Below, in pieces: positions 44,033 to 62,213 of a DNA stretch of 64,000 nucleotides (position 1 is its first letter; each line of letters opens with the position of its first letter). Under the pieces are notes generated by a model. That model did no database searches and was not told the DNA's origin. It was given only the letters and a program-made list of their open reading frames with translations. This stretch comes from Stackebrandtia nassauensis DSM 44728 (GTDB lineage: Bacteria; Actinomycetota; Actinomycetes; Mycobacteriales; Micromonosporaceae), in NCBI RefSeq assembly GCF_000024545.1, contig NC_013947.1, positions 4,278,001-4,342,000 on the forward strand, in the 5' to 3' direction. Both the position numbers and the translations under genes were made by a program.

Positions 44033-44068
44033 GACGGGCTCCGGGGAGAGGGTCTGACGGACACCCAA

Positions 44069-44097
44069 TCGTAAAGTTACTTAATTGCATACGTCAA
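44069..44097 (-). promoter_or_regulatory. Promoter of the chitinase gene
   Basis: Minus strand -35 TTGACG (44092-44097) and -10 TTACGA (44069-44074), 17 bp apart, place transcript start at about 44062 and support the chitinase start at 44032. Confidence 0.6.
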
Positions 44098-44621: not shown

Positions 44622-47600
44622 ATGGATCAAAACAACACCGACAACTCCGCGAACGACGCCGATTCCAGTCTCATCGAGCAATTCGAGGCTCAGGTCAAAC
44701 TGAACCCCACCACGGTGGCGGTCGAGGTCGGCGACACCCGGCTCAGCTACCGCGAACTCAACGACCGCGCCGACCAGGTCAGCGCCGCCCTGCAACTGCG
44801 CGGCGCCGGACCCGACACGGTGGTGGCCACGTTGCTGCCCAGGGGAATCGACCTCACCGTCGCCATGGTCGGCGTCATCAAGGCCGGTGCGGCCTACCTG
44901 ACGATGGACACCTCGGCCCCGGCACAGCGGCTGGCGACCATGATCACCGCCGCGGGGGCTCCCTGGCTGCTGACCGACGCGGCTCACTGCCCCGAGGGGC
45001 TGACCGACGCGGTCGATGCCGAGCCGATCCTGATGGACTCCCCGGACCTGCACGGCGCCGGGCTGGTGCCACCGGCCACCGCGGGGCACCCCGACGACCT
45101 GGCCTATGTGGTCTTCACCTCCGGATCCACCGGGGATCCCAAGGGGATCATGGTCTCGCACGCCAGCCTCGCCGACATCGTCGCCTGGCATCGCGGCTCG
45201 CACGCCATCTCCCCCGGCGACCGGCTCAGCATGATGATGTCGCCCAGCTTCGACGCCTTCGTCACCGAGATCTGGCCCGCGCTGACCAGCGGCGCCACCA
45301 TCTGCGTCGTCGACGACGCGGTCCGCACCGATCCGCCGCGCATGCGCGACTGGCTGCTGCGCAACGAGATCAACGTCGCCGCGCTGCCGACTCCGCTGGC
45401 CGACGCCCTGGTGGGGCTGGACTGGCCCGCCACGGCGAGTCTGCGCATCGCGCACACCGGCGGCGACCGGCTCACCAAACGTCCGCATCCGGACGCGCCG
45501 TTCACGCTCGTCAACTGCTACGGCCCCAGCGAGACGACCGTGGACGCGACCGCCGGGGCCGTGACACCGGAACCGGCCGACGGGAGGCTGCCGTCCATCG
45601 GCCGGGAGTTGCCCGGCGTCACCGCCCACCTCCTCGACGCAGAGCTGCGCCCGGTGGAGCCGGGCCAGGCCGGGGAGCTGTACCTGGGCGGGGTGAGCCT
45701 GGCGCGTGGCTATATCGGACAACCGGCGCTGACCGCCGACCGTTTCGTCCCCGATCCCTTCGACAGCCGCGGCGGGCGACGGCTGTACCGGACCGGCGAC
45801 CTGGTGCGGCGGCTGCCGGACGGACGGCTGGAGTTCGTCAACCGCAACGACGCCCAGATCCAGGTGCGCGGGCACCGGGTCGAACCGGCCGAGGTGGCCG
45901 CGGCGCTGTTGACCCATCCCGATCTGGAGCAGGCCTTCGTCCACGGGCTCGACCAGCCCGGCGGGCCACTGTTGGCCGCGCACGTGGTACCCCGCGATCC
46001 CCGCCGGGTGCCGACGGTGAAGGCGCTGCGCGAGCACCTGCGGCACCGGCTGCCCGACTACATGGTCCCGGCCGTGTTCGTCACCGTCGACGCGCTGCCG
46101 CTGCTGGCCACCGGCAAGGTGGACGTGTCGCTGCTGAGCAAGGTCGGCACCGGAAAACCGCTGACCGACACCCCGTACCGCGCGCCCCGCGACGGGCTCG
46201 AGACCCGGCTGGCCGCGATCTGGTGCGAGGTCCTGAATCTGGAGCGGGTCGGCATCGACGACGACCTGTTCCTCCTGGGTGGACATTCGCTGACCGCCAC
46301 CACCATCGCCGCCCGCATCCGCACCGACGAGGGCGTGGAGGTGTCGGTCGCCGACATCCTGACCACGACGACGATCGCGGCGCTGGCGGAACTGGTGACC
46401 GGGCGCCGGGGCACCCCGGGCACGCTGCCCAGTCTCACCGCGACCGAACGCACCCGCGCGCCGATGTCGCGGCAGCAGGAGCAGGTGTGGTTCCTGGAGA
46501 AGCTCAACCCCGACAGCATCGCGTACCACGCGCAGGCCACGATCCGGGTCGTCGGTGAACTGGACCTTGACGTCCTGGACCGGGTGCTGACCGAGATCGA
46601 CCGGCGGCACGCGATCTTCCGTACCACCTATGTGGAGGACGAGACCGGTCGCTGGCAGGTCATCCACCCACCCGCGCCGACCACGGCCCGGCGCATCGAC
46701 CTGTCCGGTCTGCCCGAGCCGAAGCGCTCGCAGCGCTGCGAGGAACTGGTCGCCACCGAGATGCGCCGCCGCTTCGACCTGGCGAAACTGCCGCTGTGCC
46801 GCTGGACGGCGGTGCGGCTGTCCGACGACGAGCACGAACTGATCTTCGTGGAGCACCACCTGGTCCACGATGGCTGGTCGTCCTCGCTGGTGGTGCGGGA
46901 GCTCAAGGAGCTGTACGGCGCCTTCCTCGCGGGCGAGGAGTCGCCGCTGCCGGAGCTGCCCGCCCAATACCACGACTTCGCGGTGTGGCAGCACGACGAG
47001 CTGGAGAACGGGGGTCCACTGTCGAAACAGCTGGACTTCTGGCGGGAGCGGATGGCCGACCCGCCCGACCCGTTGACGATCCACCCCGACCGGCCGCGTC
47101 CGGCGGTCAGCGCCAACCAGGGCAACATGTTGCGCGTCGACCTGCCCGCCTCGCTGCCGAGCGCGCTGCGCGAGTTCTGCCGCGACCAGCGGGTGACGCT
47201 GTTCTCGGCGATGTTCGCGGGCTTCGCGGCCCTGCTGCACCGCTACACCGCGCTGTCGGACCTGTGCATCGCCTCGGCCTACGCCAACCGCCGCATCCCC
47301 GACACGCAGGCCATGATCGGCATGTTCGTCAACCCGGTGCTGCTGCGCTGCCGCGTCGAACCCGGCGACGACTTCGCCGCGCTGGTAAGGCAATCGGCGA
47401 ACCTGCTGGCCGAGGCCTCCGACTACCAGGAGTACCCGTTCCCGGAGCTGGTGCGGGCGCTCAATCCGGAGCGGGACACCTCGACGCAACCGCTGACCCA
47501 GGTCATGTTCAGCGCGCACGATTCGGCGGTCCCCGAGCTGGATCTGGGTCCGGCTTCGGCGACGGTCTTCGAACGCGGCAACGGTTCGGCCAAGATGGAC

Positions 47601-49694
47601 CTGGACGTGGTGGTGCTGCCGCGCGCCGAAAGCCAGGCCCGCGACTCCGAGGCCGTCGACGAGCGCATCACCCTGTTGTGGGAGTACAACTCCGAACTGT
47701 TCGACACCGAAACGATGCACCGCATGGCGGGGCACTACATCCGCCTGCTCGAACTGGCCGTTGCCGAGCCGGACTCCCCCATCACTCGGCTGCCGTTGGC
47801 TTCCCGTGGCGAGGTCCAGCGGGCCCTGGCGGAGTGGAATCCGCCGTCGCGTCCGCATCAGCCGCCGCTGGTTCCCGATGAGGTGTTCGCTCGCGCGGCC
47901 GAGCACCCCGAGGCGATCGCCGTCGCCGCCGACGCGTCCACATTGACGTACGGACGGCTGGCGGAACGCGCGACCGCGCTGGCGGGACGGCTTCCCGACA
48001 GCGGCGTCGTCGGGGTGCTGCTGCCACGCGGTGCCGACCTCGCGGTGGCCGAACTGGGGGTCATGGCCAGCGGGGCGGCGTTCGTGCCCATCGACGTCGG
48101 CGCGCCCGGCGCGCGCATCGCCTACCTGTGCGAGGACGCCGCGATCACGACGGTCGTGACGACGGCCCAGCACGCGGCCAAGCTCCCCGAAACCGTTACG
48201 GCCGTGCTGATCGAGCAGCTGTCGATGGCCGAGGCCGTCGAGCGTCGGTCGCCGGGGCCGGACGATCCGGCCTACGTCATCTACACGTCCGGTTCGACCG
48301 GCGCCCCCAAGGGGGTCGTCGTCAGCCACGGCGCGATGGCCAACCTGGTGGCCTGGCACCGCGAACAGCTCGCGCTGTCCGCTGAGGACCGGTTCACGAT
48401 GGTGGCCTCACCGGCCTTCGACGTGTCGATCGGCGAGATCTGGCCCGCGCTGGCCAGCGGGGCGTCGCTGTCCATCCCGGACGACAGCGTCCGGCTGGTC
48501 CCCGAGCGGCTGCGGGACTGGCTGTGCGACAACCGCATCACCGTCACCGACCTGCCGGTCGCACTGGTGGAGTCACTGCTGAGTGTGGACTGGCCGAAGC
48601 CGAACGCGTTGCGGCTGATGCTGACCGGCGGCGACCGGCTCACCAAGCGTCCACCAGGGTCACTTCCGTTCCAGGTTCTCAACGCCTACGGCCCCACCGA
48701 AGCCACCGTCACCGCCACCAGCGGCGTCGTCGGCACGGACGGGTCCTCACTGCGGCCGCCGTCCATCGGACGGCCGATCACCGGCGCCCGCGCCTACGTA
48801 CTGGACGGCGAACTCGAACCGTGCGTCGTCGGCGTCCCCGGCGAGCTCTACCTCGGCGGGGCCGGGGTGGCGTTGGGGTACCTGAACCGGCCCGGCCTCA
48901 CCGCCGACCGGTTCGTCCCCGACCCGTTCGCCGCGACACCGGGCCAGCGGCTGTACCGCACCGGCGACCTGGTCCGGCAGCTGCCGGACGGGCGGCTGGA
49001 GTTCTTGGAGCGCAACGACTCCCAGATCAAACTGCGGGGCCACCGCATCGAGCCCGCCGAGATCGCCGCCGCGCTGCGCGAACACGACGCGGTCGAGCAG
49101 GCGCACGTCACGCTGCGGTCGCGCACCCGCACCGGCTCGGCCGGGGCCGCCGATCAGCTCGTGGCGTTCCTGACCGCCGCCGGTTCCGATCGGCCGGAGG
49201 CCGCGCGGTTGCGCGAGCACCTCGCCGATCGGCTGCCGAGCTACATGGTCCCCGCCGCCTTCGCCTGGATCGACACCCTGCCGCTGAACCAGAACGGCAA
49301 AGTGGACACCTCCCGGCTGACCGCGCCGGAACCCGAGACCGCCACCGCCGCCACGGCACTGGCACCCGACAACGACCTGGAACAGCGACTCGTCCAACTG
49401 TGGAAAGAGGTCCTGGAACGCGACGAGGTCGGCGTCGGCGACAACTTCTTCGACCTCGGCGGGCATTCGCTGCTGCTGGGGCATCTCCACCACCGCATGA
49501 CCACCGAGCTGGACATCGACCTGCCGATCGTGGCGCTGTTCCAGCACACCTCTATCCGCGCCGTGTCCCGCCACCTGTCGGGCGCCGGACCCACCAACGG
49601 CACCACCCCGGTTCAGGCCCGCGCGCGCCGCGCCGGAAACGCCAGGTTGAACCGCCGCCGCAACCAAAGACGATCCAGTGAGGAGTCACAGTGA
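44622..49694 (+). CDS. Bimodular NRPS (A-T-C-A-T)
   Basis: 1,690 aa without a thioesterase or epimerase. A1 (about 15-505) has TSGSTGDPKG and a C-terminal TGKVD lysine. T1 carries Ser556 in LGGHSL. C (about 590-1035) has intact HHLVHDG (745-751). A2 (about 1055-1545) has TSGSTGAPKG and NGKVD. T2 carries Ser1616 in LGGHSL. Pocket residues read by eye: A1 D,A,T,A,H,G,C,V,D and A2 D,V,G,D,L,G,A,V,T; I cannot match them to known amino acids. The first module lacks a C domain, so it is a loading module, giving a dipeptide on T2. It starts the operon and lies directly before the PKS gene. Confidence 0.95.
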   Translation: MDQNNTDNSANDADSSLIEQFEAQVKLNPTTVAVEVGDTRLSYRELNDRADQVSAALQLRGAGPDTVVATLLPRGIDLTVAMVGVIKAGAAYLTMDTSAPAQRLATMITAAGAPWLLTDAAHCPEGLTDAVDAEPILMDSPDLHGAGLVPPATAGHPDDLAYVVFTSGSTGDPKGIMVSHASLADIVAWHRGSHAISPGDRLSMMMSPSFDAFVTEIWPALTSGATICVVDDAVRTDPPRMRDWLLRNEINVAALPTPLADALVGLDWPATASLRIAHTGGDRLTKRPHPDAPFTLVNCYGPSETTVDATAGAVTPEPADGRLPSIGRELPGVTAHLLDAELRPVEPGQAGELYLGGVSLARGYIGQPALTADRFVPDPFDSRGGRRLYRTGDLVRRLPDGRLEFVNRNDAQIQVRGHRVEPAEVAAALLTHPDLEQAFVHGLDQPGGPLLAAHVVPRDPRRVPTVKALREHLRHRLPDYMVPAVFVTVDALPLLATGKVDVSLLSKVGTGKPLTDTPYRAPRDGLETRLAAIWCEVLNLERVGIDDDLFLLGGHSLTATTIAARIRTDEGVEVSVADILTTTTIAALAELVTGRRGTPGTLPSLTATERTRAPMSRQQEQVWFLEKLNPDSIAYHAQATIRVVGELDLDVLDRVLTEIDRRHAIFRTTYVEDETGRWQVIHPPAPTTARRIDLSGLPEPKRSQRCEELVATEMRRRFDLAKLPLCRWTAVRLSDDEHELIFVEHHLVHDGWSSSLVVRELKELYGAFLAGEESPLPELPAQYHDFAVWQHDELENGGPLSKQLDFWRERMADPPDPLTIHPDRPRPAVSANQGNMLRVDLPASLPSALREFCRDQRVTLFSAMFAGFAALLHRYTALSDLCIASAYANRRIPDTQAMIGMFVNPVLLRCRVEPGDDFAALVRQSANLLAEASDYQEYPFPELVRALNPERDTSTQPLTQVMFSAHDSAVPELDLGPASATVFERGNGSAKMDLDVVVLPRAESQARDSEAVDERITLLWEYNSELFDTETMHRMAGHYIRLLELAVAEPDSPITRLPLASRGEVQRALAEWNPPSRPHQPPLVPDEVFARAAEHPEAIAVAADASTLTYGRLAERATALAGRLPDSGVVGVLLPRGADLAVAELGVMASGAAFVPIDVGAPGARIAYLCEDAAITTVVTTAQHAAKLPETVTAVLIEQLSMAEAVERRSPGPDDPAYVIYTSGSTGAPKGVVVSHGAMANLVAWHREQLALSAEDRFTMVASPAFDVSIGEIWPALASGASLSIPDDSVRLVPERLRDWLCDNRITVTDLPVALVESLLSVDWPKPNALRLMLTGGDRLTKRPPGSLPFQVLNAYGPTEATVTATSGVVGTDGSSLRPPSIGRPITGARAYVLDGELEPCVVGVPGELYLGGAGVALGYLNRPGLTADRFVPDPFAATPGQRLYRTGDLVRQLPDGRLEFLERNDSQIKLRGHRIEPAEIAAALREHDAVEQAHVTLRSRTRTGSAGAADQLVAFLTAAGSDRPEAARLREHLADRLPSYMVPAAFAWIDTLPLNQNGKVDTSRLTAPEPETATAATALAPDNDLEQRLVQLWKEVLERDEVGVGDNFFDLGGHSLLLGHLHHRMTTELDIDLPIVALFQHTSIRAVSRHLSGAGPTNGTTPVQARARRAGNARLNRRRNQRRSSEESQ

Positions 49695-52615
49695 ACACCG
49701 AGGTCGACGCGACCCACATAGCCGTCATCGGGATGGCCGGACGTTTCCCCGGAGCCGTTGACCTGGAACAGTTCTGGGACAACCTCGCCGAGGGCGTCGA
49801 GTCCGTGCGACAGCTTCCGGCACCCGAGGGCGGCTCCCACCAGCCCGCCTGCGGCGTCCTGGACGAGGCCGAGTACTTCGACTGCGACTACTTCGGATAC
49901 GCGCCCCGCGAGGCGATGCTCATCGACCCGCAGCACCGACTGTTCATGGAGTGCGCCGTGGAGGCGCTGGAATACGCCGGTGAGGATCCGGCGCGCTACC
50001 CCGGACCGATCGGTGTCTACGGTGGAGCCAGCCAGTCCCTGTACCGGGAGACGCTGCGCCCGTACCGGGATCTGTTGGGCGGCCCCAGTTCCTTCCAGAT
50101 GCACCTGGGTTCGGGCAGCGACTTCCTGACCACCCGTACCTCGTACCAGCTGAACCTGCGCGGCCCCGCCGTGTCGGTGCAGACCGCCTGTTCCACGTCG
50201 CTGGTGGCGATCCACCAGGCGGTGCAGGCGCTGCTGGCCGGTGAATGCGACATCGCGCTGGCAGGGGGCGCGGGCGTTCAGGTGCCGGTCTACCCGGGCG
50301 AGTACACCGAGGGCGGCGTCCTGGCCGCCGACGGGCACTGCCGGGCCTTCGACGCGAAGGCCAGCGGGATGATCAGCGGTGACGGCGTCGGCATCGTGGT
50401 CCTGAAGCGACTGTCCGACGCCGTCGCCGAGGGCAACACCGTGCACGCGGTGCTGCTGGGCACCGCCGTCAACAACGACGGCAGCGCCAAGATCGGTTTC
50501 ACCGCGCCCAGTGTCGCGGGTCAGGCCGAGGTGATGCGCACGGCGCTGGAACTCACCGAGATCGAACCCGACACCGTCGACTACATCGAGGCGCACGGCA
50601 CCGGGACGCCCTTGGGCGACCCGATCGAGATCGCCGCGTTGACCGAGGCTTACGGCAACGCGGCGACCCGGTCGCGGACCGGCTGGGTCGGTTCGGTGAA
50701 GACGAACATCGGCCACACCGACGCGGCGGCGGGCGTCGCCGGGTTCATCAAGGTGGTGCTGGCGCTGCGGAACCGGCAGCTGCCGCCGAGCCTGAACTTC
50801 GACACCCCGAACCCGAAGATCGACTTCGCCGCGTCCCCGTTCCAGGTCAACACGAGCTTGCGTGACTGGGACACGGACGACCGGCCGCGCCGCGCGGCGG
50901 TCAACTCGCTGGGGCTGGGCGGCACCAACGCCCACGCGATCCTCGAGGAGGCCCCCGATCCGGGTCCGGTCGAGGCGTCGGCGCCGTGGCAGTTGGTCGT
51001 CGTGTCGGCGCGCACCGAGTCGGCGCTGGCGGCGGCCCGGACCCGGCTGGCCGGGCATCTGGACCGCCACCCGGACCTCGCGCTCGCCGACGTCGCCTGG
51101 ACCACACAGGCCGGACGCACCGAACACCCGCACCGGCAGTCCTTCGTGGCCAGCAGTGCGGCGGAGCTGGTCGAGCGGCTCACCGAGCCCGCCGCCGAGC
51201 GGGTCGACGCCATCGAGGACGTCAAACGTCCCGTGGTGATGGTGTTCCCGGGCCAGGGCGGGCAGCGGATCGGGATGGCGCGCGACCTGTACCGGCACGT
51301 CCCGGTGTTCCGGGACGGGTTCGACGAGTGCGCGAAGCTGTTCGCCGAGCAGCTCGGCATCGACCTGCGTGACGTCCTGTACCCGGAACCGGGCGAGCGC
51401 GACTGGGCCGAGTCCGAGTTGGCGACGATGCCGGTGAGCCACGCGGCGATCTTCGCCGTCGAGCACTCGCTGTACCGACTGTGGACACACTGGGGTGTCG
51501 AGCCGGACGCCGTGGCCGGGCACAGCCTCGGCGCCTACGCGGCGGCCTGCGCCGCCGGGGTGTTCTCGCTGACCGACGCGACGGCCATCGTGGCCGAACG
51601 CAGCCGGATCCTGGGCAGCCTGCCCGAGGGCGCGATGCTCGCGGTCCCGTTGCCGGAGCAGGCGGTCGCGGCGATACTGCCGGTTGAGTTGTCCATCGCC
51701 GCCATCAACGGGCCGGGCCAGTGCGTCGTGTCCGGACCGGCCGAGGCCATCATGGACTTCGCCAGGCGGATGGACGGCGACGGCGTCGACGTGCGCCGCC
51801 TGCACATCCCCAGCGCGGCCCACTCCTCGCTGATCGAGCCCCGGTTGCCGGGCTTCCGCGAGTTCATGAACACGATGAGCTGCGGCGATCCCCGGATCCC
51901 GATCGTGTCGGACCGCACCGGTGTCTTCCTGACCGCCGAGCAGACCGGCGACCGCGGCTACTGGACCGGCCACCTGCGCGACACGGTCCGGTTCGGACAG
52001 ACCCTGTCCACGATGCTGGAACGCGACAACGTGACCATCGTGGAGGCCGGGCCGGGACACACGCTGACCACACTGGCGCAACGGCACCCGGAGTTCCGGG
52101 ACGGACAGCTGGCCGTTCCCAGCCTGCCGCACCCCTCCGACCCCGGCTCCAGCCTGGCCCACACCCTGGCCGCCGTCGGTTCACTGTGGAGCGCCGGGCA
52201 CGGGATCGACTGGGCCAACGTCCACTCCGGTGCCCGCAGGCGCCGGATCCCGCTGCCGGGTTATCCCTTCGAGCGCACCCGGTTCAAGGTCGACCCCTCG
52301 GCCGACCCTCCGGTGGCGATCGAACCGAGCACGGCCGCCGCGGCCCGCTCGCAGGCGTCCGAGGCACCGGTCACCGGCACCGAGGTCGCCGTGGCGGCGG
52401 TGTTCCAGGAGATCCTCGGCGTTCCCGCCCCGGGACGGCAGGGGCACTTCTTCAAGCTGGGCGGCGACTCGCTGCTGGCGACCCAGTTGACCACGTGGAT
52501 CCGCGAGACCTACGACGTGAAGGTCCCGATCAGCCGGGTCTTCCGCAGTCCCACCGTCGCGGCGCTGGCCGAACTCATCGACGACGACCGCACGGAAACC
52601 GAAACCAGGAGGTAA
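49691..52615 (+). CDS. Single-module type I PKS (KS-AT-ACP)
   Basis: 974 aa. KS: C167 in TACSTS, H302 in EAHGTGT and H342 in KTNIGHT. AT: S612 in AGHSLGAY and H711 in IPSAAHSS; the L after the GHS motif suggests malonyl-CoA rather than methylmalonyl (GHSQG), although the usual HAFH is SAAH. ACP: S927 in LGGDSL. KR, DH, ER and TE are absent, so the beta-keto group is not reduced in line. The KS should accept the dipeptide from NRPS T2 and add one malonate. The ATG overlaps the NRPS stop (ATGAA), indicating coupling. No recognisable docking helices. Confidence 0.95.
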   Translation: MNTEVDATHIAVIGMAGRFPGAVDLEQFWDNLAEGVESVRQLPAPEGGSHQPACGVLDEAEYFDCDYFGYAPREAMLIDPQHRLFMECAVEALEYAGEDPARYPGPIGVYGGASQSLYRETLRPYRDLLGGPSSFQMHLGSGSDFLTTRTSYQLNLRGPAVSVQTACSTSLVAIHQAVQALLAGECDIALAGGAGVQVPVYPGEYTEGGVLAADGHCRAFDAKASGMISGDGVGIVVLKRLSDAVAEGNTVHAVLLGTAVNNDGSAKIGFTAPSVAGQAEVMRTALELTEIEPDTVDYIEAHGTGTPLGDPIEIAALTEAYGNAATRSRTGWVGSVKTNIGHTDAAAGVAGFIKVVLALRNRQLPPSLNFDTPNPKIDFAASPFQVNTSLRDWDTDDRPRRAAVNSLGLGGTNAHAILEEAPDPGPVEASAPWQLVVVSARTESALAAARTRLAGHLDRHPDLALADVAWTTQAGRTEHPHRQSFVASSAAELVERLTEPAAERVDAIEDVKRPVVMVFPGQGGQRIGMARDLYRHVPVFRDGFDECAKLFAEQLGIDLRDVLYPEPGERDWAESELATMPVSHAAIFAVEHSLYRLWTHWGVEPDAVAGHSLGAYAAACAAGVFSLTDATAIVAERSRILGSLPEGAMLAVPLPEQAVAAILPVELSIAAINGPGQCVVSGPAEAIMDFARRMDGDGVDVRRLHIPSAAHSSLIEPRLPGFREFMNTMSCGDPRIPIVSDRTGVFLTAEQTGDRGYWTGHLRDTVRFGQTLSTMLERDNVTIVEAGPGHTLTTLAQRHPEFRDGQLAVPSLPHPSDPGSSLAHTLAAVGSLWSAGHGIDWANVHSGARRRRIPLPGYPFERTRFKVDPSADPPVAIEPSTAAAARSQASEAPVTGTEVAVAAVFQEILGVPAPGRQGHFFKLGGDSLLATQLTTWIRETYDVKVPISRVFRSPTVAALAELIDDDRTETETRR

Positions 52616-52619
52616 TCCC

Positions 52620-52826
52620 ATGTTCGAAGACAATGACGGCCGCGAGTACGTCGTGGTGCGCAACGATGTCAACCAGTACTCGATCTGGCCCAGCGACCGG
52701 CAGCCGCCCACCGGCTGGGCCCCGGCGGGCCGCACCGGTTCCAAGGCCGACTGCCTGGCCGAGATCGCCGAGGTGTGGACCGACATGCGTCCGGCCCCCC
52801 GAACCGGGACCGATGCCCATGTTTGA
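52620..52826 (+). CDS. MbtH-like protein
   Basis: 68 aa. The family core is present: MFEDNDGREYVVVRNDVNQYSIWPSDRQPPTGW and SKADCLAEIAEVWTDMRP, with NxxxQYSIWP and the conserved GW. MbtH-like proteins bind A domains and are needed for folding or activity of many NRPS. It lies 4 bp after the PKS gene and overlaps the thioesterase start. Its presence supports one or both A domains being MbtH-dependent. Confidence 0.96.
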   Translation: MFEDNDGREYVVVRNDVNQYSIWPSDRQPPTGWAPAGRTGSKADCLAEIAEVWTDMRPAPRTGTDAHV

Positions 52827-53598
52827 CCCCACCGGATGGCTCGCCAACCGGCGAGCGAACCCCGCCGCCCCGACGCGGCTCTACTGTTTCCCGCACAGCG
52901 GCGGCTCCCCCGGCGAATACCTGCGCTGGACCGACCGGATCGCGGGCGTCGAGCTGTGGGCGGTGCAGTATCCCGGCCGTGGCTCCCGTATGGACGAGGA
53001 ACCGGTGCGGGACCTGGACACGCTGATCCTGCGACTGTCGGCCGACGCCGACTTCGACGGCCGGTTCGGGTTCTTCGGGCACAGCCTGGGAGCACTGGTC
53101 GCCTACGAGACCGCCCACAAGCTGCGCGAACTGGGCCACGTCACACCACAGTGGCTGTTCGTGTCGGCTTATCCGGCACCGCACCTGACCGTGATGCAGG
53201 ACCGCGAGCCGCTGCATCTGTCCTCGGACGCCGAACTCACCGAACGGCTGCTGGCCGACTTCGGCGAATCCGCCGAGCAGGTGCGCGAGGATCCCGAGTT
53301 CCTCAAGACGCTGCTCAACACCAACCGGGCCGACTACTCGATGGTCGAGACCTACAAGTACCGGCAACGGCCGCCGCTGGAGTCGGCGATCCACGTCGTC
53401 GGCGGCCTGGACGACGAGATCCCCCCGGACGAGCTCGTCGCGTGGCAGCGGCACACGTCCCGCGAGTTCGCGGTGCACCTGCTGCCCGGCGGCCACTTCT
53501 ACTTCCGGGACAACCCGCGACAGCTGCTCGACCTACTGGCGGTGGCGGCCGGGCATCCCTCCCGGCCGCTGCCCAAGCCCGCGAAGGGAACGCCATGA
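52813..53598 (+). CDS. Type II thioesterase
   Basis: 261 aa. The GHSLG elbow gives nucleophile S91; D200 in GGLDDEIPP and H228 in PGGHFYF complete the triad. The N-terminal LYCFPHSGGSPGEYLRW and VQYPGRGSRMDEEP are hallmark type II thioesterase features. It probably clears stalled or misprimed carriers, but since neither synthase ends in a TE, it may also release the product. The ATG at 52813 overlaps mbtH by 14 bp (a second ATG is at 52819). Confidence 0.95.
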   Translation: MPMFDPTGWLANRRANPAAPTRLYCFPHSGGSPGEYLRWTDRIAGVELWAVQYPGRGSRMDEEPVRDLDTLILRLSADADFDGRFGFFGHSLGALVAYETAHKLRELGHVTPQWLFVSAYPAPHLTVMQDREPLHLSSDAELTERLLADFGESAEQVREDPEFLKTLLNTNRADYSMVETYKYRQRPPLESAIHVVGGLDDEIPPDELVAWQRHTSREFAVHLLPGGHFYFRDNPRQLLDLLAVAAGHPSRPLPKPAKGTP

Positions 53599-55256
53599 CC
53601 ACGTTGATGACCGCCACCTCGTCGCTGCCGAGCCTGTTCGACGAGCTGTGCCTGGGCCGGATCCGCTGGGATCTGTTGCGGCCCTTCCCGATCCAGGGCG
53701 CCACCGACCGCGCCCACGGCGAGGCCGTCACCGGCGAACTGAACCGGGTGCTGGCCAAGTACGGCGAACCCCACCACACCGACACCTCGGCGCTGATCAC
53801 CAAGGAACTGCTGTGTGACCTGGCGGCCCCGGAACTGCTGGGGCCGCGCCCCGCCGAGACCGAACTGTCGGACACGAACCTGTTCCGGCTGCTGGAGACC
53901 GCCGCCGACTGGACCCCGGCGCTGGGTACGGCCACGGCCGTCAACCGGCTGCTGGGTGCCTGGTCGTATCTGCCGTTGACGCAGGACGGGCGGCTGCGCG
54001 AGTTCATCCTCGCCAACACGCCGGGCCGTGTCGGCGCCGGAGCCGACACCGACCTGTCCGGCGCGGGCAGCCGGTTGCGGTCCGTCACCGCCACCCCGGT
54101 TGACGACGGCTCCGCGTTCCTTCTCAACGGCACCAAGGCTTTCGTCACCAACGCCCCGATCGCCGACATCATCGACGTCTCGGCGACCGTCGTCGACGAC
54201 GCCCAGCCGCGGGTGGTGTTGTTCTTCCTCACCACCGACACGCCGGGCGTCGAGATCGGACACCGGCACGACCTGACCGGCCCCGACGGGCTGCCCAACG
54301 GCATGGTCCGGCTGACCGACGTGCGGGTGCCGAGGGAACACATCCTCGGCGACGCCGACCTCGGTTGGCAGTCCATACCGGACCTGACGTCGCTGATGGT
54401 GCGGGCGCGGTTCTTCGTCGTCTCGGCGCCGTCGCTGTCGCTCATCAAGCACTGTGTCCGGTCGGCGGCCGAGTTCGCCGCCCGCAGGCTGGTGGACCAG
54501 GTTCCGCTGGTCGAGTACGACTACATCGAGCACCTGCTGGCCGGGATCGGCGCCGAGCGCTTCGCCGCACAGAGCCTCGTCGACTGGTGCACCCTGGCCA
54601 CCGGCCGCGCCAACACGATCCCCGAGCAGCGGGTGGCCAAGAACCTGATGTCGATGGCCTGCTGGCGGGTCGCCGACCAGGCGACGTCCATCATGGGCGC
54701 CCAGGGAGTCGAGACCGCCGCCGGGAAACGGGACCGGGGCGCGCCCGCCGCCGGGTCCGTCGAACACGCCCTGCGGACGGCCCGGGCCATGCGGGTCGCG
54801 GGCGGGGTGGACTTCCTGGTCGACTACCTGGCCGGTTGCGCCGGGGTGTTCCCGCTCCACTACGACGCGGCACAGCCGGTCGGTTCCTCGACGGTGATCC
54901 CCGCCGATCTTCCCGATCCGCTGCGCGGTCACGCCGAGTTCCTCACCTGGGAGGTGCACCGGTTCGCCGAGCGGGCCCGCGCCTTCGTCAGGCGCTACCC
55001 CGATCCGGCGCAACTGCATGAGCGGCAGGCGATCCCGATCCTGATGAACCGGATCGCCTCGGAGCTGCTGGCGATGGTCCTGACCGTCGCGCGCGCCGGT
55101 GACCCCGGCACCGACCCGCTGCCGGTGGACCTGGCCAACACCTACTGCGCGCGGGCACGACGCCGGATCGCCGACGCGTTCCGGGAACTCAACGACGGCA
55201 CGCCCCCGGGGCGGCGCCGGATCGTCCGGGAACTCCTGAAGGGAGTGTCCAAATGA
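53595..55256 (+). CDS. Acyl-CoA dehydrogenase-like flavoenzyme
   Basis: 553 aa, longer than the usual 380-400. The ACAD middle domain is seen (AFLLNGTKAFVTNAPIADIIDV, the FAD/substrate GxKxxxTNA motif, and VRVPREHILGDADLGWQSI), followed by the helical C-terminal domain (SLVDWCTLATGR, SIMGAQGVETAAG). A C-terminal extension of about 120 aa is unexplained. In NRPS-PKS clusters such enzymes oxidise carrier-bound aminoacyl or acyl groups to the unsaturated form. The catalytic Glu is not certain. The ATG overlaps the TE stop and the LanB-like gene overlaps its stop by ATGA. Confidence 0.85.
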   Translation: MTTLMTATSSLPSLFDELCLGRIRWDLLRPFPIQGATDRAHGEAVTGELNRVLAKYGEPHHTDTSALITKELLCDLAAPELLGPRPAETELSDTNLFRLLETAADWTPALGTATAVNRLLGAWSYLPLTQDGRLREFILANTPGRVGAGADTDLSGAGSRLRSVTATPVDDGSAFLLNGTKAFVTNAPIADIIDVSATVVDDAQPRVVLFFLTTDTPGVEIGHRHDLTGPDGLPNGMVRLTDVRVPREHILGDADLGWQSIPDLTSLMVRARFFVVSAPSLSLIKHCVRSAAEFAARRLVDQVPLVEYDYIEHLLAGIGAERFAAQSLVDWCTLATGRANTIPEQRVAKNLMSMACWRVADQATSIMGAQGVETAAGKRDRGAPAAGSVEHALRTARAMRVAGGVDFLVDYLAGCAGVFPLHYDAAQPVGSSTVIPADLPDPLRGHAEFLTWEVHRFAERARAFVRRYPDPAQLHERQAIPILMNRIASELLAMVLTVARAGDPGTDPLPVDLANTYCARARRRIADAFRELNDGTPPGRRRIVRELLKGVSK

Positions 55257-57790
55257 GTGCCGAACACCTGATCCCGCTGCCGGGCTCGGACTGGAAGTTG
55301 TGGCGCGAGTGTTCGCTGCGCAGCGCCGGGTTCCCGGTCGAACTCGCGTCGCGGTTCTCGGATCCGGCGATCGTTCGCGAGGCCCTGGCCGAGGAGTCCG
55401 GAGGTGACTTCGTCGACCGGTACACGGAAGCGGTCGACCGCTCGGTCAAGGCACTGCGCTCGTTCGTGGAGCTGCCCGGGTTCCGGGAGGCCGTCGCCTG
55501 GCAGAACCCGGCGATCCTGCACAACTGGCTGACGAAGATGGCGCATTCGGGCGACGACCGCAAACTGCGCAAGAACCGGTACATGAAGGCGGTGGCGTCG
55601 TACGCGCAGCGCTACTTCACCAAGAACGACACCATCGGCTTCTTCGGGCCGGTCGGCTGGGCCACCTGGGACGACGACGTCGCGGAGCTTCAGGTGACCA
55701 CGGGCGCGAAGCTGCTACGCCGTCGGGCCACGTACTTCGAGACCTGGGCGATCGAGGCGCTGGCGGGCGTGCTGGCGGAGGATCCCCGGTTGCGGCCGTG
55801 GCTGCGGCCCCGGCTGGTGGCCGGATGCTGGCGCGACGCGTCCAGTGTGAACCGTCCCTACGCCGCGCCGTTCCCGCTGGACGCCGAACAGGCCGCACTG
55901 CTCGACGCCTGCGACGGATCCCGGACCGTACGCCAACTGGCGCAGGCGTTCGAGACCTCGCAGCGGTGGGACGAGCCGGAGATCATCTCGCAGCTGACGA
56001 CGTGGTGCGACCAAGAGCTGGTCGAGCTCGATTTCGCCGGGCCGATCGAGGCCCGGCCGGAGCTGCGGTTGCGTCAGCAACTGGAGTCCATTGGTGACGA
56101 TGAGGCGCGGCTTCACGCGCTGGAGCAGCTGACCCGGTTGGAGGCGGCCCGGTACCGGGTGACGCTGAGCCGGGGCGACCCCGAGGGGGTGGCCGACGCG
56201 TGCGTGAATCTGGCGCGGGTCTTCGAGGACATCACCAAACGCAAGTCGAGCCGCAACGACGGCAAGATGTACGCGGGCCGGACTCTGGTCTATGAGGACA
56301 CTCGCCGCGATGTCGATGTCACCCTGGGGGCGTCGGTGCTGGCGGAGTTGGCGCCGCCGCTGCGGATCGTGCTGGACTCGGCCGCGTGGCTGATCGCGCG
56401 GGCCGGTGAGGTGCTGCACGATCGGCTGCGCGATCTGGTGCGGGCCTACCAGTCCGACACCGGTGGCAGCGGCATGCCGCTGCCGGAGCTGCTGGCCCGG
56501 TCGACGCCGATCCTGCATCCGTGGAACCCCGGCGACTCGCCGCTGGGCGCGGTGCGCGAGGAGTTCCAGAGCCGCTGGGCGCGGGTGCTCGGTGAACCCG
56601 AGTGGGTGCAAAGCTGGCAGACCGATCCGGAACCGGCCGACGCGCCGCCACCGGACGATCCGGAGGAGCCGGACACCGTCAAGCCGAGGCCGCCGCCGCG
56701 CGGCCCCGACGACGCGGGCACGGTCAAGCCGAAGCCACCCCCGCGTGGCCCCGACGAGGCCACGCTGGCCGACGGGGAGACCGCCTCGGGGCACCGGCCG
56801 GACGAGGTCGCCATCGGCGAAGCGCGGGCGCCGCGGCGACAGTTCGCGTCGCGCGATCTCGTCGAGCGGGCCGCGCGGTTGTTCCCGCCCGCGCCCGCAC
56901 CGTGGGCCGGGGCCATGCACCTGTCCCCCGACATCATGATCGCCGCCCGCGACGCGCAGGCCGTCAACGATGGCGACTTCGCGTTCGTGCTCGGCGAACT
57001 GCACCTGGCCAACAACACCCTCCAGGCCCGGCCGTTCGTCGAGATGCACGACGATCCCGACGCCCTGCTGGCCGCCACCGAGTCCGACTTCGGCGACGAA
57101 CGTGTCTACTATGTCCCGACCCGCAAGTCGCCGCAGGTCAACTCGCGCGCCTACCCGTCGGCGATCCTGCCGCCGTCCTACACCTACTGGTGTCTGCACG
57201 ACGACTCCGGCGGCGCGGCGGGCCCGGTGATCCCGGCCGGAACCATGACCGTGTTCCTCGACGGCGACCGGCTGCGGGTCCGCGACCGCGACGGCCGCGA
57301 GTTCGGCCTGCTCGCCGTCCTGGACGAGCAGCTGGCCTGGCCGATCGCCGACATCTTCGCCCCGATCCCGAAACGTCGGCACCAGCCGCGCTTCTCGATC
57401 GACAAGCTCGTGCTGCACCGCGAGAGCTGGCACTTCCTCGCCGACGAGCTCGACTGGGCCTTCGCCTCGACCCCGGCCGAGCGGTTCCGCGAAGCCCAGC
57501 ACTGGTGCCGCGAGCAGGCCATCCCCTCCCGGGTGTTCTACAAACTGTCCACGGAGGAGAAACCCTGCTTCGGCGACCTGTCCAGCGTCGCGCTCGTCGA
57601 ATGCCTGGCCCAGGCCATCCGGGCCGCCGTCGAGCAGGACGAGACCGCCACCGTCGGCCTCAGCGAGATGCTGCCCGACCTGCACCAGGCCTGGCTGCCC
57701 GGGCCGGACGGCGAAATGTACACATCGGAACTTCGATTCGTGGCCGTGAACCCGCACGGCACCGACAACATCCTCGACACCCCTTCCTAA
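55253..57790 (+). CDS. LanB-type lantibiotic dehydratase N-terminal domain protein, no elimination domain
   Basis: 845 aa. The N-terminal glutamylation-type domain of LanB is recognisable: KNRYMKAVASYAQRYFTKNDTIGFFGPVGW, AGRTLVYEDTRRDVDVTLG and IPSRVFYKLSTEEKPCFGDLSSVALVECLAQAI. The SpaB_C elimination domain expected after it in full LanB enzymes is not visible, which is the layout of tRNA-dependent peptide ligases (PEARLs). Inserted at about 457-530 is a Pro/Asp-rich linker with a 15-residue repeat, TVKPRPPPRGPDD (475-487) and TVKPKPPPRGPDE (490-502). No precursor peptide gene is seen in the operon. Role is inferred only. Confidence 0.75.
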   Translation: MSAEHLIPLPGSDWKLWRECSLRSAGFPVELASRFSDPAIVREALAEESGGDFVDRYTEAVDRSVKALRSFVELPGFREAVAWQNPAILHNWLTKMAHSGDDRKLRKNRYMKAVASYAQRYFTKNDTIGFFGPVGWATWDDDVAELQVTTGAKLLRRRATYFETWAIEALAGVLAEDPRLRPWLRPRLVAGCWRDASSVNRPYAAPFPLDAEQAALLDACDGSRTVRQLAQAFETSQRWDEPEIISQLTTWCDQELVELDFAGPIEARPELRLRQQLESIGDDEARLHALEQLTRLEAARYRVTLSRGDPEGVADACVNLARVFEDITKRKSSRNDGKMYAGRTLVYEDTRRDVDVTLGASVLAELAPPLRIVLDSAAWLIARAGEVLHDRLRDLVRAYQSDTGGSGMPLPELLARSTPILHPWNPGDSPLGAVREEFQSRWARVLGEPEWVQSWQTDPEPADAPPPDDPEEPDTVKPRPPPRGPDDAGTVKPKPPPRGPDEATLADGETASGHRPDEVAIGEARAPRRQFASRDLVERAARLFPPAPAPWAGAMHLSPDIMIAARDAQAVNDGDFAFVLGELHLANNTLQARPFVEMHDDPDALLAATESDFGDERVYYVPTRKSPQVNSRAYPSAILPPSYTYWCLHDDSGGAAGPVIPAGTMTVFLDGDRLRVRDRDGREFGLLAVLDEQLAWPIADIFAPIPKRRHQPRFSIDKLVLHRESWHFLADELDWAFASTPAERFREAQHWCREQAIPSRVFYKLSTEEKPCFGDLSSVALVECLAQAIRAAVEQDETATVGLSEMLPDLHQAWLPGPDGEMYTSELRFVAVNPHGTDNILDTPS

Positions 57791-57798
57791 GGACTGCC

Positions 57799-59511
57799 AT
57801 GTCAAGTGTTCCCTTTCACGACCCCGGCGAACCCAATACCGCCAGCCCACTGCGATATCTACTGTGGCTGACGGCCCGGCAGCCACTGCGGGTCTTCGCG
57901 GTCGCCGCGCTGACCAGCCTGTCGATCACCGGCATGATCCTGGCGCCGTTCTTCGTCGCCCACGCCATCGACGACGGTCTGGTCCCGCGTGACTGGACCC
58001 CGCTTTTGTGGTGGTCGGCCGGGGTGATCGGCCTCGGCCTGGTCACCGCCGCCGCGATCGTCTACCAGCAGCGCACTCTCACCTTCGCCAAGCTCGACTC
58101 GATGTACCGGACGGTCGCGGTGACCACCCGGCAGATCGCCCGGCTGGGCGCCACCCTCCCCAAGCGAGTATCCACAGGGGAGATCGTCAACGTCGGCGGC
58201 ATGGACGTCGCGGCCATCGGCGAGGCGATGAGCGTCGCCGGACCCGGGATCGGTTCGATCGCGGCGCTGGTCGTGGTCGGGGTGCTGCTGTTCTCGATCT
58301 CGCCGATCCTGGGCGCGGTCGTGTTCGTCGGCACGCCGCTGATGGTGCTGGCGGTCGGCCCGCTGCTGGAACGGTTGCAGAGCCGCGAGTCCGACTACCG
58401 TGACCACCAGGGCGAACTGACCGCCCGCTCGGCCGACATCGTCGCCGGGCTGCGGGTGCTGCGCGGCGTCGGCGGCGAGCGCGCGTTCGCCGACCGCTAC
58501 CGCGCCCGCTCGGCCGCGCTGTTGCGCGAGGGCTACAAGGTCGGCGCCGTCACCAGCTGGGTGCGGTCCTTCGAGACCGCGCTGCCGGGCCTGTTCCTGG
58601 CGGCGGTGGTGTGGATCGCGGCCCGGCTGGCGGCCTCGGGAGCCATCAGCATCGGCGAGATGGTCGCCGTCTACGGCTACACCGCGATGCTGATGCTGCC
58701 CATGAACTGGATCCTGGGTTCGGTCATCAACGCGATCCGCGGCCTGGTGGCGGCCAAACGCGTCATCACGGTACTGCGGTTGCGCCCCAACGTGTCCGAC
58801 GGCACCGAGACCAAACCGGGACCGACGGCACCGTCCAGTCTGCACGACCCCGGCTCGGGACTGACCGTCCCGGCGGGGACCATGCTGGTGCTGGCCGCCG
58901 CCGACCCGGCCGAGTCACGGGCGCTGGCCGACCGGCTGGGCCGCCACGAGGACTCCGACGTCAGCTTCGGCGACGTCCGACTGTCCGACATGGCGCTGTC
59001 GGAGGTGCGGGAGCGGATCCTGGTCGCCGACAACGACGCCTTCCTGTTCGCCGGAACCGTTCGCCAGATCGTCAGGGGCGGCGCCGAACCCGACGACGCG
59101 GGCGTCACCAGCGCATTGCGCGCGGCTGTGGCCGAGGACATCGTCACCGCGTTGCCCGAGGGCATCGACACCAGAATGGACACCCAGGCGCGCGAACTGT
59201 CCGGCGGTCAACGGCAACGGCTGCGGCTGGCCCGCGCGATCCACGCCGACCCCGAGGTGCTGATCCTCGTCGAACCGACCTCGGCCGTGGACGCCCACAC
59301 CGAGGCCACCATCGCCGAACGGTTGCGCGAGGCCCGAAGCGGCCGCACCACGATCGTCGTCAGTTCCTCCCCGCTGCTGGCCGACCGCGCCGACAGCGTC
59401 GCCTTCCTCGCCGACGGCAAGATCGCCGCGACCGGCAACCACCAAGACCTCATGGACGAAAGCCCCGAGTACCGGGCGCTGGCCGGACGCAGCATAGGAG
59501 TGCGGGCATGA
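57799..59511 (+). CDS. ABC exporter subunit 1 (TMD-NBD) with degenerate ATP site
   Basis: 570 aa. Six TM helices (about 25-320) are followed by an NBD with an intact signature LSGGQRQRLRLARAI but lost nucleotide-site residues: the P-loop region reads VLAAADPAES (about 364-375, no GKS/T), Walker B is VLILVEPTSAVD (VE instead of DE) and the H-loop is VSSSPLL (no His). With the next gene it should form a heterodimer. It starts 8 bp after the LanB-like gene, and its stop overlaps the partner's start (ATGA). It is the likely exporter or self-resistance system for the product. Confidence 0.92.
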   Translation: MSSVPFHDPGEPNTASPLRYLLWLTARQPLRVFAVAALTSLSITGMILAPFFVAHAIDDGLVPRDWTPLLWWSAGVIGLGLVTAAAIVYQQRTLTFAKLDSMYRTVAVTTRQIARLGATLPKRVSTGEIVNVGGMDVAAIGEAMSVAGPGIGSIAALVVVGVLLFSISPILGAVVFVGTPLMVLAVGPLLERLQSRESDYRDHQGELTARSADIVAGLRVLRGVGGERAFADRYRARSAALLREGYKVGAVTSWVRSFETALPGLFLAAVVWIAARLAASGAISIGEMVAVYGYTAMLMLPMNWILGSVINAIRGLVAAKRVITVLRLRPNVSDGTETKPGPTAPSSLHDPGSGLTVPAGTMLVLAAADPAESRALADRLGRHEDSDVSFGDVRLSDMALSEVRERILVADNDAFLFAGTVRQIVRGGAEPDDAGVTSALRAAVAEDIVTALPEGIDTRMDTQARELSGGQRQRLRLARAIHADPEVLILVEPTSAVDAHTEATIAERLREARSGRTTIVVSSSPLLADRADSVAFLADGKIAATGNHQDLMDESPEYRALAGRSIGVRA

Positions 59512-61247
59512 ACGAACGATTCCCAGTGGCCGACCGCAACCAGGTCCGCCAAGCCCTGTGGCGACTGATCAAACTGGAACGCAGCGCCGTGGCGGGACTG
59601 CTGGTGCTGTACCTGGCCGCCGCGGTCGTCGGCGTCGCCGCGCCGGTACTGCTCGGCGAGATCGTCGACCGGGTCAGCGCGGGCGACGGCGGCGTCGACG
59701 TGCTGGCGGGCCTGATCGTCGCCTCGATCGCGGCACAACTGGTGCTGGTGCGCTATTCCCGCTACGTGGGGCACCGCTTCGGCGAACGGGCACTGGCCCG
59801 GATGCGGGAACAGTTCGTCGACCGGATCCTGAAGCTCCCGCTGTCGAAGGTGGAGCGAGCCGGTACCGGTGACCTGATGACCCGCAACTCGCTGGACGTG
59901 TCCACGGTGGGCACGATGCTGCGCGACGCGATCCCGGAGATCTTCATCAGCCTCGTCAACGCGGCGATCATCCTCGCGGCCGTGTTCTACCTGCATCCGC
60001 TGCTGGGGCTGTGCGTGTTCCTGATGGTTCCCACCGTCTACGCCGGAACCCGCTGGTACCTGAAGCGGGCCCGCGACGGCTATCTGGCCGAGGGCGACGC
60101 CAACACCGAGCTCACCGAGACGCTGGCGGCCACGGCCGACGGGGCCAGGACACTGGAGATCCACCGGATGGAGTCCGAACGGGTAGCCGCCGGGGCCGAG
60201 ACCATCCGGCACGCCTACAAGACCCGGCGCTACACGCTCTTCCTGCGCAGCATCCTGTTCCCGTCCCTGGACGGGTCCTATCCGCTGCCGATCGCGGGCA
60301 TGCTGATCGTGGGCGGTGTCCTGTACTTCAACGACGCCATCAGTCTCGGCGTCATCGTCGCGGCCACCATGTTGAGCCGCCAGTTCGTCGAACCCTTCGA
60401 CATGGTGCTGCTGTGGGTGGAGAAACTCCAGCTGGGCAACGCCTCCCTTGCTCGCGTCGAGGGCGTCGGTCTGGTGGAGGGCAACGGAAAGGCCCGCGAC
60501 GCCGAACCCGACGGCGACCGCCTCAAAGCCTCCGATGTGTACTACACCTACGACGGTGACCGCGACGTCCTGCACGGCGTCAGCCTGGACGTGACCCCCG
60601 GCGAACGCCTGGCGATGGTCGGACCGTCGGGCGCCGGGAAGTCCACTCTGGGCCGGATCCTTGCCGGAATCGACGCCCCCCGCTCCGGCGACATCGCACT
60701 GGGCGGCGTCCCGGTCACAAAACTACCGTTGGAGCGACTGCGCGGCCTGATCATGCTGGTCACCCAGGAACACCACGTTTTCCGGGGCACGCTGCGCGAC
60801 AATCTCGCGCTGGCCGACGAATCCGCCACCGACGCCAAGATGCTCGGCGCGCTGTCGGTCGTCAACGCCGACTGGGTCAACGACCTGCCCGAGGGCCTCG
60901 ACACCGAACTGGGCAACGACACCCTCGAACTCGACGCCGCCCAGGCCCAGCAACTGGCGCTGGCCCGCGTCGTGTTGGCCGACCCGCACACGGTGATCCT
61001 GGACGAGGCCACATCCATGCTGGACCCGACCGTCGCCCGCCACGCCGAGTCGGCGCTGGCGGCGGCCCTGGCGGGCCGCACCGTGATCGCGATCGCGCAC
61101 CGGCTGCACACCGCGCACGACGCGCAGCGGGTGGCCGTCATCGAGAACGGTCGCCTCGTCGAACTGGGCAGCCACGGCGAACTCACCGCCGCCGGCGGCT
61201 CCTACGCCGCGCTGTGGCACAGCTGGCGCGGCGACTCGAAGAACTGA
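59508..61247 (+). CDS. ABC exporter subunit 2 (TMD-NBD), catalytic partner
   Basis: 579 aa. Six TM helices (about 25-310) and an NBD with intact Walker A GPSGAGKSTLGRIL (about 371-382), Q-loop VTQEHHVFRGTLRDN, Walker B VILDEATSMLD and H-loop IAHRLHT, but the ABC signature is degenerate: LELDAAQAQQLALARV in place of LSGGQ. It therefore complements subunit 1, which keeps LSGGQ but lost the P-loop. Together they make one consensus and one dead ATP site. Last gene of the cluster. Confidence 0.93.
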   Translation: MNERFPVADRNQVRQALWRLIKLERSAVAGLLVLYLAAAVVGVAAPVLLGEIVDRVSAGDGGVDVLAGLIVASIAAQLVLVRYSRYVGHRFGERALARMREQFVDRILKLPLSKVERAGTGDLMTRNSLDVSTVGTMLRDAIPEIFISLVNAAIILAAVFYLHPLLGLCVFLMVPTVYAGTRWYLKRARDGYLAEGDANTELTETLAATADGARTLEIHRMESERVAAGAETIRHAYKTRRYTLFLRSILFPSLDGSYPLPIAGMLIVGGVLYFNDAISLGVIVAATMLSRQFVEPFDMVLLWVEKLQLGNASLARVEGVGLVEGNGKARDAEPDGDRLKASDVYYTYDGDRDVLHGVSLDVTPGERLAMVGPSGAGKSTLGRILAGIDAPRSGDIALGGVPVTKLPLERLRGLIMLVTQEHHVFRGTLRDNLALADESATDAKMLGALSVVNADWVNDLPEGLDTELGNDTLELDAAQAQQLALARVVLADPHTVILDEATSMLDPTVARHAESALAAALAGRTVIAIAHRLHTAHDAQRVAVIENGRLVELGSHGELTAAGGSYAALWHSWRGDSKN

Positions 61248-61258
61248 GACCCACCCCG

Positions 61259-61288
61259 GGACTGGCCCGCCGAACGGCGGGTCAGTCC
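61259..61288. terminator. Hairpin at the end of the cluster
   Basis: GGACTG-G-CCCGCC (61259-61271) pairs with GGCGGG-T-CAGTCC (61276-61288) around loop GAAC, 11 bp after the exporter stop. There is no U-tract. It overlaps the stop codon of the convergent carbonic anhydrase gene and may terminate transcription from both sides. Confidence 0.6.
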
Positions 61289-61983
61289 ACCAGGGTCACC
61301 TTGCCGGTGTCGAGGTCGTAGCGGGCACCGACCACCGTCAGCTCGCCGGCCTCGACCTTCTCGGCCACGATGTCGCTGCGCCGCTGCAACTGCTCGACGA
61401 CGTCGACGATGTTGGCGCGGACACCGTTCTCCACCTTGTCGCCCGGTTCGTCGAGCACGGGCTCCACGACCGGCCGCAGGGCCTCCACGATCGCGGCGAT
61501 GTGGCCGGGCGGTTCGGTCCCGCTCTCGATCGCGTCGATGGTGGCGGTGATCGCCCCGCACCGCTCGTGGCCCAACGCCATCAACAGCGGCGGCGCGAAC
61601 TCCTCGATGGCGAACTCGATGCTGCCCAGCAGCAGTTCGTCGGGGATGTTGCCCGCGATGCGGTGGTCGAAGACGTCGCCGAGCCCCTGATCGAACAGGA
61701 TCTCCGGCGGCACTCGCGAATCCGCGCACCCGATGGTGATCGCGAACGGGTGCTGCCCCTTGGCCACCTCGTGCAGGTACTCCAACGACTGGTGCGGGTG
61801 CCGGGAATGCCCCTTGATGTATCGACGGTTGCCGCGCATCAACCGGTCGAGCGCCGCGTCGGGGCTGGCGGCCTGGTCCTCGGCGATCGCCGAGGGAGCC
61901 AGCGCGACGGTCCCGGCGGTACCGGCGACGGCCAGGCCCGCGGTGGTGAGCAGAGTTCTGCGATGGACAGGTTTGAGCCGCAT
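61282..61983 (-). CDS. Beta-carbonic anhydrase with Tat-like signal
   Basis: 233 aa. Zinc ligands C86, H139 and C142 with the D88-R90 dyad (CADSRVPPE and GHERCGA) define a beta-class carbonic anhydrase. The N-terminus HRRTLLTTAGLAVAGTAGTVALA has a twin-arginine RRxLL pattern and hydrophobic core with cleavage near AIA-EDQ, so it is probably exported folded with its zinc. ATG 61983 has GGAG upstream; the longer open frame is not supported. It hydrates CO2 outside the membrane. Confidence 0.93.
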   Translation of the reverse strand: MRLKPVHRRTLLTTAGLAVAGTAGTVALAPSAIAEDQAASPDAALDRLMRGNRRYIKGHSRHPHQSLEYLHEVAKGQHPFAITIGCADSRVPPEILFDQGLGDVFDHRIAGNIPDELLLGSIEFAIEEFAPPLLMALGHERCGAITATIDAIESGTEPPGHIAAIVEALRPVVEPVLDEPGDKVENGVRANIVDVVEQLQRRSDIVAEKVEAGELTVVGARYDLDTGKVTLVD

Positions 61984-62213
61984 GGAATCTCCGATGGGGT
62001 TTGCGGAGCAGGGTGTGAGTTCCGTGTCCGCCAGGGGAAGTGGCGGGCGCCCCGTCCACACTACTCCCGCCGGAACGGGTCTGTTTCGGAGGTTTCTCAC
62101 GTACGCGAGGTTCGCGACCACCCCCACCCGAATCTCACTGGATACGATGAGGTTCCCGGCACGATCCCCATTGCCCACTCCATTGCCCCAGCACAACCCC
62201 GAACGGAGCCCCC

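Follow-up and report, generated by a model that had tools for sequence, protein, structure and literature searches.

Gene content and organization of the locus

We analyzed a 64,000-nucleotide stretch of the Stackebrandtia nassauensis DSM 44728 genome (NC_013947.1, positions 4,278,001 to 4,342,000; hereafter the window, numbered from its first letter), in which Pfam searches together with inspection of open reading frames (ORFs) and motifs placed eight co-directional plus-strand genes, snaABCDOET1T2, at 44622-61247. These genes almost certainly constitute the species' sna cluster for threopeptin biosynthesis, and their domain matches in Pfam were far beyond chance. The first, snaA (44622-49694), encodes a bimodular nonribosomal peptide synthetase (NRPS) of 1690 amino acids with the arrangement A-T-Curea-A-T, comprising two AMP-binding, one condensation and two carrier domains; the condensation motif, EHHLVHDG at residues 744-751, has the EHHXXHDG form of ureido-forming (Curea) domains. 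It is followed by snaB (49691-52615), a polyketide synthase (PKS) module of 974 amino acids assigned as KS-AT-ACP from Pfam and motifs, in which Pfam matched no methyltransferase domain, by snaC (52620-52826), an MbtH-like protein of 68 amino acids (PF03621), and by snaD (52813-53598, with an alternative start at 52819), a stand-alone thioesterase of 261 amino acids carrying GHSLG (PF00975). The product of snaO (53595-55256; 553 amino acids) is an EpxF/EpnF-type acyl-CoA-dehydrogenase (ACAD)-like enzyme with ACAD middle and C-terminal domains, and its closest solved relative is EpxF (9gn5, E 1.6e-85, residues 12-541). The next gene, snaE (55253-57790), is annotated as a lantibiotic dehydratase on a PF04738 match and encodes 845 amino acids that we interpret as a ligase resembling peptide aminoacyl-tRNA ligases (PEARLs). 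Two ABC transporter genes with PF00664 and PF00005 complete the set, snaT1 (57799-59511) and snaT2 (59508-61247), matched within the longer ORFs 56602-59511 and 58611-61247, respectively.

The genes are closely spaced. snaA and snaB share a GTGA overlap, 4 bases separate snaB from snaC, snaC and snaD overlap by 14 bases, ATGA overlaps occur at snaD/snaO, snaO/snaE and snaT1/snaT2, and 8 bases separate snaE from snaT1. A hairpin 3' of snaT2 (61259-61288; 13-bp stem, 4-base loop) overlaps the 3' end of a convergent carbonic anhydrase frame; in RNA folding its minimum free energy was -37.5 kcal/mol (z -4.81, 0/200 shuffles equally stable), and it is the probable transcription end of the sna genes. 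With 4-base overlaps at four of the seven junctions and this very stable hairpin beyond snaT2, the genes are likely transcribed as one unit. A preliminary description of this DNA, made from its letters, had listed an A-T-C-A-T NRPS, a KS-AT-ACP PKS, MbtH, a thioesterase, an ACAD-like enzyme, a LanB N-terminal-domain protein and an exporter pair, all of which are present where it placed them. It had also claimed several ATGA overlaps (these account for three of the seven junctions, the fourth 4-base overlap being GTGA) and a single operon-like unit of eight genes, which the 4-base overlaps and the terminal hairpin make likely.

Identity with the threopeptin cluster

The genome containing the window is one contig of 6,841,557 bp, and the genome of S. 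nassauensis LLR-40K-21T is reported as one replicon of 6,841,557 bp (PMC3035245). Yu and van der Donk (2024) described the sna cluster of S. nassauensis with the gene order snaABCDOET1T2 (PMC11212132), which is the order in the window, A-B-C-D-O-E-T1-T2. Residue numbering also agreed exactly with that account: E744, H746, H749 and S753 of SnaA, as well as the motif E744-H-H746-L-V-H749-D-G, fall at the published positions. The preliminary description had recognized no characterized cluster with this content, and had held that its view would be refuted if a pathway with this gene set had been published; the sna/threopeptin pathway is such a pathway, and PMC11212132 reports product structures and gene inactivations for exactly this cluster. 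Its reading of the gene content was sound and its guess at the mechanism good, but the cluster is already known and the claim of novelty fails. PMC11212132 credits Singh et al. (2017) with the first bioinformatic description. Our literature search on threopeptin returned nothing beyond PMC11212132 and its preprint, and wider searches showed no other paper on the cluster among the papers listed.

Expression of the sna cluster in Streptomyces albidoflavus is reported to yield threopeptin, a bis-arginyl ureidopeptide enone (PMC11212132). According to the same source, compounds 1/4 require SnaA and form without SnaE, compounds 2/5, which carry one extra Thr, require SnaA and SnaE, and the alkene-bearing compounds 3/6 require SnaA, SnaE and SnaO; deletion of snaE led to loss of the Thr-containing 2/5 and 3/6. 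Both Arg activations and formation of the ureido linkage are assigned to SnaA, and in vitro SnaA with SnaC gave the bis-arginyl ureido intermediate, in which the ureido group joins the amines of two arginines and the first Arg keeps a free carboxylate. Labeled propionate was incorporated into the product, with one propionate-derived unit extending the scaffold (PMC11212132).

In the pathway proposed there, bicarbonate would provide the ureido carbon, and SnaE, using ATP and Thr-tRNA as in other PEARLs, would attach Thr to the free carboxylate. SnaB would draw on methylmalonyl-CoA, SnaO would decarboxylate and dehydrogenate to give the vinyl ketone, SnaT1/SnaT2 would export the product, and threopeptin may inhibit the proteases of competitors (all PMC11212132). 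The full-length similarity of SnaO to EpxF fits the enzyme type invoked in that proposal. The scaffold had been guessed in the preliminary description to be a dipeptide-ketide or a small scaffold; the published one is not a plain dipeptide-ketide, as a ureido group bridges the amines of its two Arg and one propionate-derived unit extends it (PMC11212132). The accompanying idea of an aminoacyl-tRNA-dependent transfer onto a nonribosomal scaffold was right in kind, since it has been published for SnaE with the tRNA and ATP dependence drawn from homology. The description had also held that its view would be refuted if the LanB-like gene proved dispensable for the product; the published deletion, which abolishes the Thr-containing products, contradicts such dispensability (PMC11212132).

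SnaE as a probable PEARL-like ligase

SnaE matched PF04738 (Lant_dehydr_N) with an E value of 4.8e-25 over model positions 3-287 of 649, extending to 329 in the whole-genome search, and had no match among solved structures at E values up to 1 when its sequence was searched. The elimination domain PF14028, by which a class I lantibiotic dehydratase is recognized, was found neither in SnaE nor near the cluster in a whole-genome search, where only two full LanB genes elsewhere matched. These full-length genes, with both PF04738 and PF14028, lie at G000:C1:3827329-3830046 and 5748936-5751617.

In the PEARL TglB, the ATP site is reported to comprise Asp542, Glu564, a conserved His, Glu801 and Arg803, of which Asp542 and Arg803 are conserved only in PEARLs (PMC11117183). 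Matching by motif and spacing gave D560, E582, H584, E826 and R828 as the counterparts in SnaE, with 22 residues from D560 to E582 and two from E826 to R828, both as in TglB. When SnaE was aligned with 80 relatives (three of which are shorter than 700 residues and apparently cut by contig ends), D560, E582 and H584 were identical in 81/81 sequences, and E826 and R828 in 77/81, the remaining four being gapped there. At D560, E582 and H584, the genome's two full LanBs have residues other than those of SnaE. As far as sequence can indicate, this ATP-site pattern agrees with the PEARL step of the threopeptin pathway. The picture is mixed for contacts to the tRNA 3'-CCA, reported in BhaBC-Trp as Arg197, Gln201, Tyr205 and Arg208 (PMC11962472): spacing points to R109, A113, Y117 and R120 of SnaE, and among SnaE and its 80 relatives R120 occurs in 81/81 and Y117 in 79/81. 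Within snaE, two 45-base tandem copies (56670-56757) encode a proline-rich linker at approximately residues 473-502, and three aligned homologues do not have this linker.

Several points limit these interpretations. The identity of the cluster with the published one (ADD43706.1 and following) was judged from gene order, SnaA residue numbering and genome length. The correspondence between SnaE and TglB comes from spacing and motif rather than from alignment to a characterized PEARL, and a dependence of SnaE on ATP and aminoacyl-tRNA is suggested by homology and by the deletion reported in PMC11212132. In BhaBC-Trp, Asp558 and Glu575 are 17 residues apart, not 22 (PMC11962472), and residue 542 of TglB is given as Glu in PMC11962472 and as Asp in PMC11117183. 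Spacing places A113 of SnaE where BhaBC-Trp has Gln201, and the R109 position is variable, with R in only 9/81 sequences. Moreover, the same two LanBs show E and R in the columns of E826 and R828, within a long gapped stretch; because the alignment is gapped there, we read this as misalignment, and the LanB control is uninformative for these two residues.

Alternative explanations for SnaE and the downstream gene

Two other roles for SnaE were weighed. It might be a real dehydratase-type enzyme that glutamylates a ribosomal precursor peptide encoded in or near the cluster, for which its PF04738 match and the two full LanBs elsewhere in the genome could be cited. No PF14028 lies near the sna genes, SnaE carries PEARL-type ATP-site residues, and the effect of the snaE deletion on Thr-containing products refutes such a role for the known products (PMC11212132). 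The authors of that work also report no identifiable precursor peptide in clusters of this kind, a statement we repeat with no search of our own, and we consider a ribosomal substrate vanishingly improbable. Alternatively, SnaE could be a passenger, with the cluster product made without it. Related ureido clusters with NRPS, PKS, MbtH, thioesterase and ACAD genes had no detected SnaE homologue in two genomes (in one of them, the contig ends soon after snaO in an assembly of 490 contigs), and compounds 1/4 form without SnaE (PMC11212132). This explanation is nonetheless extremely improbable, being refuted for threopeptin by the loss of 2/5 and 3/6 upon deletion (PMC11212132), and SnaE is retained at 60 percent identity in an orthologous cluster, as described below.

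A related question concerns the cluster boundary. Directly 3' of the sna genes, a convergent minus-strand gene at 61282-62196 encodes a beta-carbonic anhydrase (PF00484, E 1.2e-35), which might supply the ureido carbon and so form a ninth cluster gene, given that it adjoins the cluster and that bicarbonate is the proposed carbon source (PMC11212132). Against this, it lies on the opposite strand, its junction with the cluster carries a strong hairpin, and carbonic anhydrase genes are on contigs other than the cluster's in 3/3 related ureido-cluster genomes (a weak observation for the assembly of 490 contigs). This gene was also not part of the published expression construct (PMC11212132), although an enzyme of the host strain may have served instead, and a literature search linking carbonic anhydrase to ureido NRPS gene clusters found nothing. 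We judge membership very unlikely and rejected the gene as a ninth sna gene, in view of the location of carbonic anhydrase genes off the cluster contig in all three related genomes.

Also next to the cluster, at 62214-63422 on the plus strand, lies an FAD-dependent monooxygenase gene that scored 303 bits against a tetracycline destructase subfamily model, below the cut-off of 550. On the other side of the cluster, upstream of snaA, an open frame of 387 codons (42927-44090, minus strand), a putative gene, matched nothing in Pfam or NCBIfam at E 0.001.

Related ureido clusters and SnaE-like ligases in other genomes

The preliminary description had called for a search for co-occurring homologues. 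A complete eight-gene orthologous cluster in the same order is present in Phytomonospora endophytica YIM 65646 (G026, locus L028), with the condensation motif EHHMVHDG and a SnaE 60 percent identical to that of S. nassauensis. Two further loci, L033 (G007) and L035 (G019), have homologues of SnaA, SnaB, SnaC, SnaD and SnaO with the motif EHHLVHDG, and a profile search of both genomes detected no SnaE homologue, which is weaker evidence for G019 (490 contigs, with the contig ending approximately 0.7 kb after snaO). The expected products of such clusters would be shorter. At L035, a gene judged by eye to be exporter-like lies between the MbtH and thioesterase genes. In a class-wide draw, in which no more than four candidates from each genome were scored, at least 6 of the 197 genomes matched SnaE, this genome included.

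A contig scan using SnaE alone detected no relative, and a scan with an alignment (A1) gave 402 loci; the counts that follow cover the best 80 of these, examined as stretches of up to approximately 24 kb, some ended by contig ends, and with a strict HHxxxDG motif pattern. An NRPS adenylation or condensation match occurred at 68/80 loci and a KS-AT match at 33/80, with either one at 71/80, and a SnaO-like match was found at two, of which one was weak, with 24 percent identity across 238 residues. Condensation matches were present at 61/80, and the motif was readable at 52/80 and unreadable at 28/80: EHHxxHDG occurred at eight loci (L036, L037, L044, L046, L047, L069, L076 and L078) and only other motifs at 44. 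No locus (0/80) had an elimination-domain match with one LanB of this genome as the query, a test too weak to prove absence because the N-terminal region of that LanB, whose superfamily includes the SnaE relatives, likewise matched 0/80. SnaE-like ligases therefore do occur with ureido-type NRPSs, in a minority of the loci examined.

Since other motifs alone were read at 44/80 loci and EHHxxHDG at eight, yet D560, E582 and H584 are identical in all 81 sequences, SnaE-like ligases in NRPS/PKS clusters may mostly act without ureido chain reversal, as a general off-line, tRNA-fed extension of carboxylates that thioester chemistry cannot reach. We would lean slightly against this wider role. A broader class has already been suggested (PMC11212132). 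If true, the targets would be released chains or side-chain carboxylates of nonribosomal products. Separately, a Candidatus Stackebrandtia excrementipullorum metagenome-assembled genome (L039) encodes a relative of SnaE (32 percent) close to a condensation domain whose motif, SHHAVLDG, is not the ureido one, and another genome of the same genus (G046) has one within an open frame that, at 2258 codons, is unusually long.

Comparison with known systems

Compared with the published sna cluster (PMC11212132), gene order and SnaA residue numbering are the same, with no difference in the features compared. The additions made here are small, namely the P. endophytica ortholog, the SnaE-less clusters, the PEARL residues and the reading of a ureido-type motif at only 8/80 loci. 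The biology of note, a PEARL-like ligase whose addition of a residue runs counter to an assembly line, was published from this cluster in 2024. The epoxyketone proteasome-inhibitor clusters (EpxF/EpnF) likewise combine an EpxF-type ACAD with NRPS and PKS modules, whereas in sna the PKS has no methyltransferase domain, a ureido group and a PEARL are added, and the reaction ends at the enone, the only such product reported in PMC11212132. Class I LanBs have PF04738 in common with SnaE, which differs in having no PF14028, in its chemistry and in the absence of a reported precursor peptide. A further parallel is with the PEARLs TglB and BhaBC-Trp, which are likewise PF04738-type proteins without an elimination domain and have the ATP-site D, ExH and C-terminal ExR (PMC11117183, PMC11962472); in contrast to their ribosomal carrier peptides, the substrate of SnaE is a small nonribosomal ureido compound (PMC11212132).

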